DNA from: an uncultured Chlorobiales bacterium
GTDB lineage: Bacteria > Bacteroidota > Chlorobiia > Chlorobiales > Chlorobiaceae
Direction: 5' to 3'
Assembly (NCBI GenBank): GCA_903929135.1
Contig: CAIYTH010000002.1
Location: 1 to 64,000 of the forward strand
Length of the DNA: 64,000 nt
Translations under genes and position numbers: made by a program
The notes under the pieces: generated by a model
What the model saw: the letters and a program-made list of their open reading frames with translations, nothing else
Told to the model about the DNA's origin: nothing
The model's database searches: none
Shown: positions 45,524 to 47,771 of the stretch, piece by piece
How positions within the stretch are numbered: the first letter of the stretch is position 1
Layout: each line of letters opens with the position of its first letter

Positions 45524-46078
45524 GTGCAGGGACATATCTTCAATCTTCCCAATTGCCTGAGTTTTCTGAGGATCCTGCTGATTCCCTGGTTCATCTATTA
45601 CCTGCATGCCGGACGGACGGAGGTGGCGATCGTCATCATGATCATCGCGCTCCTTTCCGACTGGTTCGACGGTCGTGCCGCCAGGTGGACCAACGAGGTA
45701 TCTGATATGGGGAAGATCCTCGATCCACTGGCCGACAAGCTCTGCCTTGCCAGCGTTGCGGTCTATTTCCTCTGGAAAGGGGATCTTCCGGTCTGGTTCG
45801 TGGTGTTCGTCGTACTGCGCGACCTGCTCATTTTCATCGGGGCGGCATGGATACGCCACCGTCACAATGTGCTGACCACCTCGCTCTGGCCAGGCAAGTG
45901 GGCAGTCGGTTTCGTTTCCATCATGTTCATCTCCATGATCTGGCCACATCCGTTTTTTGCCCGCTATCCTGTCAAGGATTTCTTCATGTACCTCTCCGCA
46001 GTGATGCTGTTCTATTCGTTTCTCGAGTACTGCGTCCGTTTCTACCGGATCAGGCAGGGGCTCGATTACCAGGCATGA
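45524..46078 (+). CDS. CDP-alcohol phosphatidyltransferase (PgsA-like)
   Basis: NLPNCLSFLRILLIPWFIYYL; LSDWFDGRAARWTNEVSDMGKILDPLADKL (DGxxAR..GxxxDPxxDK). Confidence 0.9.
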   Translation: MQGHIFNLPNCLSFLRILLIPWFIYYLHAGRTEVAIVIMIIALLSDWFDGRAARWTNEVSDMGKILDPLADKLCLASVAVYFLWKGDLPVWFVVFVVLRDLLIFIGAAWIRHRHNVLTTSLWPGKWAVGFVSIMFISMIWPHPFFARYPVKDFFMYLSAVMLFYSFLEYCVRFYRIRQGLDYQA

Positions 46079-46194
46079 CGGTTCCCGGATCTCCTTTGCC
46101 GGCAAGGCTCGGCGCAGGTGTAGTCCCTGGTGTGTTTTATGAACGCCTGAATATGGACTACTGTATACCAAACCGAAGACAATACAGGTTAGTT

Positions 46195-46316
46195 AATGTA
46201 TAAGTGATTGTTATCAAGTCACTTATTTGATTATTAACGGCGTTGTCCACAGATGTTGAAAATGTGGACAACTTGTTGGCAACCTGTTGGCAGGAGTGTT
46301 GGCAAGCTGTGGAAAT
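46195..46316. other. oriC-like cluster: AT-rich segment, inverted DnaA-box-like sites, three phased TGTTGGCA repeats
   Basis: TTGTCCACA 46243-46251, TGTGGACAA 46263-46271, TGTTGGCA at 46274, 46285, 46297 (11- and 12-bp spacing), TGTGGAAAT 46308; IR TAAGTGA..TCACTTA just upstream. Confidence 0.45.
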
Positions 46317-46357
46317 AACAGGAAAAGCCCCGTCTTTGCGGGGCTTTTCCTGTTATT
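46314..46357 (-). terminator. Strong terminator hairpin after lpxC-fabZ
   Basis: Perfect 19-bp stem aataacaggaaaagccccg / cggggcttttcctgttatt. Confidence 0.88.
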
Positions 46358-46367
46358 GTATGCGGTA

Positions 46368-47771
46368 TCAGCTGTTCTTGTTCATGACCGTGGCCATGAG
46401 GGAGGCCTCACAGACCAATTCGCCCCGGACATAGGCTTTTGCGTCGAACTGGCAGACGGTTCTGCGCTTGTTGGTCATGACGGCTTCGATGACGAGGGTG
46501 TCGCCGGGGAGCACCGGTTTGCGGAACCGGGCCTTGTCGATGCCCATGAAGAATACCACCGAATCCTTGATGTTCTCTTTTCCGTTGAGCATGATGATGC
46601 CGCCGGTCTGCGCCATGGCTTCGATGATGAGCACACCGGGCATGACCGGATTTCCCGGGAAATGCCCCTGGAAGAATGGCTCGTTCATGGTGACGTTCTT
46701 GATCGAGACGATCTTCTCGTCGAGCTTGAACTCGACGATCTTGTCGATCAGGAGGAACGGATAACGGTGCGGCAGGATGTTGAGGATGGCGTTGATGTCA
46801 AAAATGACGCCGGCTTTCTTTTCGTGCTGGTATTGGCGGGCCAGCTTGTTCCGGTCGGCATATTTCTTGAGCTGCTTGACGAATTCCACGTTCGATGCGT
46901 GTCCCGGTCTTGCGGCGAGCACCTGCGCCTTGACGGGCATGCCAAGCAGGGCGAGGTCGCCGAGCAGGTCGAGAAGCTTGTGGCGTGCGGGTTCGTTCGG
47001 GAAGCGCAGTTCGCGGTTGTTCAGGATGCCGTTCTGTCCGAGCACCAGATGCGAGCTGCTGATACCGATCTTGTCGGCGAGCCCCTGTATCTCGGCCTGT
47101 TCGAGCTGTTTGTCGACGATGACGATGGCGTTGTCGACGTCGCCGCCCTTGATGATGCCCTGGTTGGCGAGGGCTTCGACTTCGCTCAGGAAGCAGAAGG
47201 TCCGGCAGGGTGCGAAATCCTTGAGAAACTCCTTGTTGAGGTCGAACAGCCCGGAATGCTGTGAACCCAGGGCGGGGTTCTTGTAGTCGACCATGACCGT
47301 GGTCCTGAAGCTGTCGAGCGGCAGGGCCACGATATCGACGCCCTGTTCGGAGTTGTGGTATTCGATGGTCTCATCGATGACCAGGTAGTTTTTAGGTTCG
47401 TCCTGTTCGGCGATGCCGGCCGAGATGATGGCCTCGGCGAACGGTCGGGAGCTGCCGTCCATGACCGGTGGCTCGGGGCCGCTGAGCTCGATGCGGCAGT
47501 TGTCGATCTGGAGTCCGTAGAGGGCGGCAAGGACATGTTCGGTGGTGTGCACTTTCACTTCGCCGATGGCGATGGTTGTGCCGCGCCGGACATCCACCAC
47601 ATTATCGATCAGAGCAGGAATTTCGGGGCAGTCGACAATGTCGTTTCGAACGAAGGTGTAGCCGTAGTTCGGCGGTGCAGGCTTGAACGTGATCGTGCAT
47701 TCCTGGCCGGTGTGGAGGCCGATTCCCTGGAGGGAGACTTCGTTCTGGAGGGTGCGCTGATTAATGAGCAT
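46368..47771 (-). CDS. lpxC-fabZ: Bifunctional UDP-3-O-acyl-GlcNAc deacetylase / 3-hydroxyacyl-ACP dehydratase (LpxC-FabZ fusion)
   Basis: N-terminal LpxC (NEVSLQGIGLHTGQECTITFKPA, TTEHVLAALYGL) and C-terminal FabZ (INAILNILPHRYPFLLIDKIVEF, NEPFFQGHFPGNPVMPGVLIIEAMAQ). Confidence 0.96.
   Translation of the reverse strand: MLINQRTLQNEVSLQGIGLHTGQECTITFKPAPPNYGYTFVRNDIVDCPEIPALIDNVVDVRRGTTIAIGEVKVHTTEHVLAALYGLQIDNCRIELSGPEPPVMDGSSRPFAEAIISAGIAEQDEPKNYLVIDETIEYHNSEQGVDIVALPLDSFRTTVMVDYKNPALGSQHSGLFDLNKEFLKDFAPCRTFCFLSEVEALANQGIIKGGDVDNAIVIVDKQLEQAEIQGLADKIGISSSHLVLGQNGILNNRELRFPNEPARHKLLDLLGDLALLGMPVKAQVLAARPGHASNVEFVKQLKKYADRNKLARQYQHEKKAGVIFDINAILNILPHRYPFLLIDKIVEFKLDEKIVSIKNVTMNEPFFQGHFPGNPVMPGVLIIEAMAQTGGIIMLNGKENIKDSVVFFMGIDKARFRKPVLPGDTLVIEAVMTNKRRTVCQFDAKAYVRGELVCEASLMATVMNKNS

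Follow-up and report, generated by a model that had tools for sequence, protein, structure and literature searches.

The window analysed here is a stretch of 64,000 nucleotides from a draft genome of the Chlorobiaceae (2.14 Mb in 62 contigs), and the site of interest within it is a non-coding gap where a pgsA-like gene and an lpxC-fabZ gene converge on a cluster of DnaA-box-like sequences. The two flanking genes, already named as such in a first-pass annotation made from the letters of the DNA, were confirmed by their Pfam domains, and the LpxC-FabZ protein of the window shares 89–93% identity with its counterparts in Chlorobaculum and related drafts. From left to right, the genes and the features between them are the following:

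45524–46078, plus strand: pgsA-like gene (CDP-alcohol phosphatidyltransferase), an open reading frame matching Pfam PF01066 (E = 2.6e-36); left neighbour, convergent
46152–46160, minus strand: box B, TATGGACTA, degenerate in the window; placed by a 64-locus alignment, strand given in the sense of TTATCNACA
46160–46240 (about): AT-rich segment between box B and the array, GC 25–35%
46199–46226: AT-rich dyad of 28 bp, TATAAGTGATTGTTATCAAGTCACTTAT, centred at about 46213 and containing the inverted repeat of the first-pass annotation
46243–46251, plus strand: DnaA-box-like TTGTCCACA, in the orientation opposed to the array
46254–46262, minus strand: array box TGTTGAAAA, a motif match absent from the first-pass annotation
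46263–46271, minus strand: array box TGTGGACAA, the inverse of TTGTCCACA; the conserved core TGTKGAYAACTTGTKG begins here
46274–46282, minus strand: array box TGTTGGCAA, a motif match
46285–46293, minus strand: array box TGTTGGCAG, with one mismatch
46297–46305, minus strand: array box TGTTGGCAA, a motif match and the second occurrence of this sequence
46308–46316, minus strand: array box TGTGGAAAT, with one mismatch
46314–46357: perfect terminator-like hairpin of 19 bp, between the array and the lpxC-fabZ stop
46368–47771, minus strand: lpxC-fabZ fusion gene, an open reading frame matching Pfam PF03331 (E = 2.6e-90) and PF07977 (E = 4.2e-36); right neighbour, convergent

When considered from the point of view of its parts, the segment 46243–46316 holds seven DnaA-box-like 9-mers, six on the same strand about 11 bp apart (starting at 46254, 46263, 46274, 46285, 46297 and 46308) and an inverted one at 46243. 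All the sequences named at first reading are found at this locus, including three repeats of TGTTGGCA at 11- and 12-bp spacing, which start at 46274, 46285 and 46297. Read on the other strand, these repeats are variants of the shared loose 9-mer TTNYCMACA, and since they fit the box 9-mer, the array consists of six same-strand boxes plus one inverted box. The pair formed by TTGTCCACA and its inverse is likewise present, but the gap between them is 11 bp and not the 12 bp originally given. The AT-rich DNA with a TAAGTGA/TCACTTA inverted repeat also stands as described, the arms of the dyad being ATAAGTGA at 46200–46207 and TCACTTAT at 46219–46226. In the family, box B takes the form TATTGATAA followed by CTTT. 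It is important to stress that the TGTTGGCA boxes score weakly against the E. coli consensus, the TGTTGGCA sequence departing from the E. coli box at several positions.

The box cluster at this locus is not due to chance. The motif TGTKGRNA occurs 21 times in the window versus 23 times in resampled sequence, and seven of the 21 matches fall within 80 bp at the locus, compared with a maximum of three in 100 first-order resampled windows; this is the only box cluster in the 64 kb. Clusters of at least three boxes are confined to dnaA and the pgsA/lpxC locus in a 1.59-Mb sample from four single-contig relatives, and whole-genome counts of TTATCCACA with one mismatch reveal no enrichment (217 versus 206 in the control). 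Thus, single boxes are not enriched genome-wide, and the signal lies in clustering and phasing only.

Conservation and geometry of the element

Conservation in relatives had been put forward as a check on the motif, and it holds: apart from the window itself, 63 of 74 Chlorobiaceae relatives have the array in the same pgsA/lpxC gap, on the downstream side of lpxC. The 16-bp core TGTKGAYAACTTGTKG, which contains TGTGGATAA or TGTTGATAA, is present in 84 of the 86 family genomes, usually in one to three copies each, versus one match in total for the reversed control. The same core was found in two of 12 genomes from other families of the class, and the lpxC genes of these outgroup families have neither a box cluster nor a recognised pgsA neighbour. 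An 11-bp phasing applies to 136 of about 200 box spacings in the arrays of the relatives and the window, and the boxes of 64 loci run head to tail (168 forward, 13 reverse); the inverted box is only partly conserved and is missing from most relatives. The site is absent from the gap in the C. luteolum/C. phaeovibrioides group and in some other genomes, and its loss in that group indicates that it is dispensable there. In one genome (G030), phased boxes are present in the gap although the exact 16-mer is absent. At another locus (L066), the gene beside lpxC resembles, by eye, an ABC-transporter permease and not pgsA, a swap that speaks for a rearranged neighbourhood where the element is absent.

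Box B, the dyad and array A form one rigid module, which is new in the present analysis. In the 64-locus alignment, the outlying same-strand box B (TATTGATAACTTT) precedes the array by 108–110 bp in 52 of 61 loci. The centre of the dyad is 49–50 bp ahead of the array in 42 of 46, box B and array A each standing about 50 bp from that centre. Mean pairwise identity is highest in the core (91%), lower in box B (78%) and the dyad (53%), and falls to 33% and 38% in the two spacers; such low identity at rigid distances indicates that the length of the spacers is kept and their sequence is not. Among the loci tabulated, the lpxC stop lies anywhere between 86 and 234 bp from the array.

The E. coli IHF consensus was also considered as the element lying between the boxes and was set aside as unconvincing, with exact matches to WATCAANNNNTTR in only 3 of 64 spacers; allowing one mismatch, it occurs in 26 of 64 spacers versus 8 of 64 shuffled ones. 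Counts over whole elements (54 of 64 within one mismatch) were discarded, because the TTGATA within the boxes confounds them.

Recurrence of the module and position of the origin

The dyad and its boxes recur at four other places: the glnA/kdsC gap, the side of a DedA gene in Chlorobium, the region upstream of dnaA and the dnaA-dnaN gap. A second copy near dnaA had been suggested as something to look for, and clusters are indeed found at dnaA in the relatives, with perfect TTATCCACA among the 9-mers packed around this gene. A search of five single-contig genomes with a looser phased pair gave 29 matches versus one in the control, mostly at dnaA, pgsA/lpxC and glnA/kdsC and, in G024, at the DedA locus; about six of the 29 fall outside all four loci. 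A dyad position model trained only on the pgsA/lpxC site produced a fixed-position match beating first-order resampled controls (p ≤ 0.1) at 14 of 15 kdsC sites, 9 of 11 DedA-side sites, 15 of 16 dnaA-dnaN gaps and 15 of 17 regions upstream of dnaA, the compared loci being related and the counts therefore not independent events. Taken by itself, the AT-rich dyad is not a rare motif (127 matches at a score of at least 15 in 1.66 Mb), so that its signal may be partly a composition effect. Box distances on either side of the dyad centre are about 52/50 at the pgsA/lpxC site, 97/96–107 or 84–95 at kdsC, 86/92 on the DedA side, 37/40 between dnaA and dnaN, and 31, 96, 107/16 upstream of dnaA.

The second of these satellites, in the glnA/kdsC gap (G000:C50:92790–92805 in the draft genome; L162–L191; G016:1194079 and G019:784208), lies 36–43% of the chromosome from dnaA, with about 110–150 bp separating its array from kdsC downstream, an interval that holds a conserved AAAAGTGATATATT segment. 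A third satellite, seen only in the Chlorobium-type genus, lies at L239:3427 (G024:C1:2158426) and also in L240, L241, L243, L245, L247, L249, L250, L252, L255 and L256, flanked by a DedA-family gene and, in L239, by a radical-SAM-like gene. It is present even where the pgsA/lpxC site has been lost, and in G024 (2,364,842 bp) it stands beside the DedA-family (VTT) gene at 8.7% of the chromosome from dnaA. Upstream of dnaA itself, some genomes carry two opposed core copies 1 bp apart that make a near-perfect palindrome (G026:C57:68766/68783; G036:C15:22961/22978; G037:C6:56326/56343; G050:C14:3822/3839).

No dnaA or dnaN had been noticed near the site, in agreement with the position of dnaA on a separate contig of the draft genome (G000:C53). 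GC skew, measured on sampled 20-kb stretches, locates the origin of the relatives elsewhere. In G002, a single contig of 2,289,249 bp, dnaA begins near base 167; the first 1.1 Mb or so has a positive skew and everything beyond 1.24 Mb a negative one, and the sign change coincides with the contig ends carrying dnaA; the pgsA/lpxC array lies inside, at about 567.5 kb, or 24.8% of the chromosome from dnaA. The sign change of G019 (2,154,946 bp) is also found around the contig ends, where dnaA sits, and that of G016, whose dnaA is at 2.148 Mb, is blurred over about 2.1–2.24 Mb and 0–20 kb. In G016 the site maps to 461.8 kb, in G019 to 1,572 kb and in G001 to 531 kb; the skew has the same sign to its left and right in all three, and in the window the skew stays positive across 46 kb. 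The computed distances of the site from dnaA (24.7%, 27.2% and 19.1% of the chromosome in G016, G019 and G001, respectively) are similar, which is not independent evidence, because pgsA, ruvC and lpxC travel with the site. The chromosomal origin, one of three options offered in the first-pass annotation, is contradicted by these data, since the skew of the relatives changes at or near dnaA and the site lies well inside one replichore; an active origin at the site was rejected on the basis of the skew. In its layout the site does show a DnaA-box cluster beside an AT-rich region, and such a dense cluster is insufficient for calling an origin.

In most relatives, a DnaA-like box upstream of dnaN is followed, after a short spacer, by CAA-type repeats and AT-rich DNA, and a CAA/TTG-type repeat adjoins a DnaA box in 13 of 16 dnaA-dnaN gaps and at none of the satellites. 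Judged by its sequence, this module is a likely candidate for the true origin of the Chlorobiaceae. It resembles, with the repeats compared regardless of strand or register, the order DnaA-box, spacer and DnaA-trio described as broadly conserved in origins (PMC8287927), and in Melioribacter roseus, a deeper relative, the origin has been predicted between dnaA and dnaN (PMC3534657). The box, CAA-type repeat and AT-rich stretch near dnaN can be seen at L001:2521–2809 and in the dnaA-dnaN gaps of L209–L237.

A putative DnaA-regulating satellite

The site is probably a non-origin DnaA-binding regulatory satellite, similar in kind to datA or DARS, which would act by titration or nucleotide switching on bent DNA. 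With the origin contradicted and the motif conserved at the locus, the two other original options, a DnaA-titration site or a regulatory element, are supported as predictions, and the site is the dense, conserved, non-origin DnaA-box cluster expected of a titration site. DnaA would oligomerise head to tail on the phased array A, whose boxes follow one another in one direction at roughly one helical turn, an arrangement that suits a DnaA filament. The AT-rich dyad would then be folded, either by a DNA-bending protein (possibly one of the two clear HU/IHF-family proteins encoded in the draft genome) or through the flexibility of the DNA alone, and this would bring DnaA on box B, about 50 bp across, to the array; a second box at a fixed distance across the dyad suits a bend joining both DnaA groups. 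The resulting complex may sequester DnaA or alter its nucleotide state, either by datA-like ATP hydrolysis or by DARS-like exchange, and thereby help to time the firing of dnaA/oriC. Transcription through datA and DARS impairs their function (PMC5010248), and by analogy the convergent, hairpin-bounded position of the site fits such transcription-sensitive elements.

In E. coli datA, an IHF site lies between boxes 2 and 3, which share one strand (PMC10380432), and the locus hydrolyses DnaA-ATP and also titrates DnaA (PMC5835720). The present site is non-coding and non-origin as well, with same-strand boxes at fixed spacing on both sides of what may be a bending site, the dyad, and extra boxes beside one of them. 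It differs from datA in its longer phased array of Chlorobiaceae-type boxes, its near-symmetric arms, its dyad in place of an IHF consensus and its several copies per genome, and no sequence homology is claimed; the resemblance is one of layout. DARS loci reactivate DnaA, and DARS1 and DARS2 share with the site their nature as non-coding intergenic DnaA-box clusters far from oriC, with more than one per genome. DARS requires head-to-head boxes I and II plus box III (PMC10380432), whereas the array here is head to tail, with one partly conserved opposing box in the window. Non-origin DnaA-box clusters also restrain initiation in Bacillus subtilis and Streptomyces, where they are described close to oriC (PMC4585315), unlike the present one, which is 19–27% of the chromosome away and has a dyad-centred geometry. 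Finally, origins of the dnaA-dnaN type, as predicted in Melioribacter roseus, also combine phased DnaA boxes with AT-rich DNA, but the site is off the skew minimum, away from dnaA and devoid of a box-adjacent trinucleotide repeat. It is filed here under DnaA-regulating satellite loci, neither as datA nor as DARS.

A broader proposal, which we advance tentatively as one that may or may not hold, is that the Chlorobiaceae possess a multi-site DnaA control of their own, not homologous to datA or DARS, in which one module, with DnaA boxes set at fixed distances to either side of an AT-rich dyad, would be reused at dnaA/oriC and in two or three satellites distributed over the chromosome and would be read by DnaA together with a putative dyad-binding or bending protein.

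Among the other explanations, it is improbable that the site serves as a rarely used origin (during replication restart or DnaA overproduction), whether dormant, secondary or copied from an ancestral origin module: the array and dyad are common to the site and the dnaA regions, and the AT-rich DNA contains TTATT/TTGTT-type words, but unwinding needs no rigid symmetric box-dyad-box spacing, the skew passes the site without inflection, and no trinucleotide repeat adjoins a box there. DnaA acts as a transcription factor in other bacteria, and the copy at kdsC precedes a gene with the conserved AAAAGTGATATATT segment; a DnaA-responsive transcription element for a neighbouring gene or an unannotated RNA is nevertheless unlikely, given that both neighbours end towards the site, which is thus at neither promoter, that no Rfam family was found in the 64-kb window, that promoter-like matches at the site are close to the chance level, and that the same design occurs in differing gene contexts. 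It is very unlikely that the 9-mers are read by another protein, such as a chromosome organiser or partition protein. The distance of TGTTGGCA from the E. coli box and a dyad with no assigned binding protein would agree with this, but the same 9-mers surround dnaA, the conserved core includes TGTGGATAA or TGTTGATAA, and the DnaA of the draft genome carries the standard DNA-binding domain (PF08299). Least credible of all is an active chromosomal origin whose neighbouring AT-rich DNA is opened by array-bound DnaA, since, despite the phased boxes adjoining that DNA and a dyad common to the site and the dnaA-dnaN region, the skew of G002 changes about 568 kb away, the skew does not change sign across the site in G016, G019, G001 or the window, the CAA/TTG repeat is missing beside the boxes, and one clade has lost the site.

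Among the papers covered by our literature search, none deals with DnaA boxes in Chlorobium and none with the pgsA/lpxC locus. DnaA-controlling satellites have been worked out mainly in E. coli, where they are served by IHF and Fis, and the module described here supplies exact sites and spacings for testing. If the regulatory reading is true, rigid, repeated DnaA modules kept at several places on the chromosome by bacteria with no obvious Hda gene would mean that such control evolved differently elsewhere. Only one DnaA-family gene is present in the draft genome, and for this reason no Hda is seen there. Extra weak DnaA-domain matches of about 250–300 aa occur in G022, G024, G026, G059, G065 and others; these are probably IstB/IS21-type transposition helpers and not Hda, and the DnaA query sequence also matches the IstB_IS21 family.
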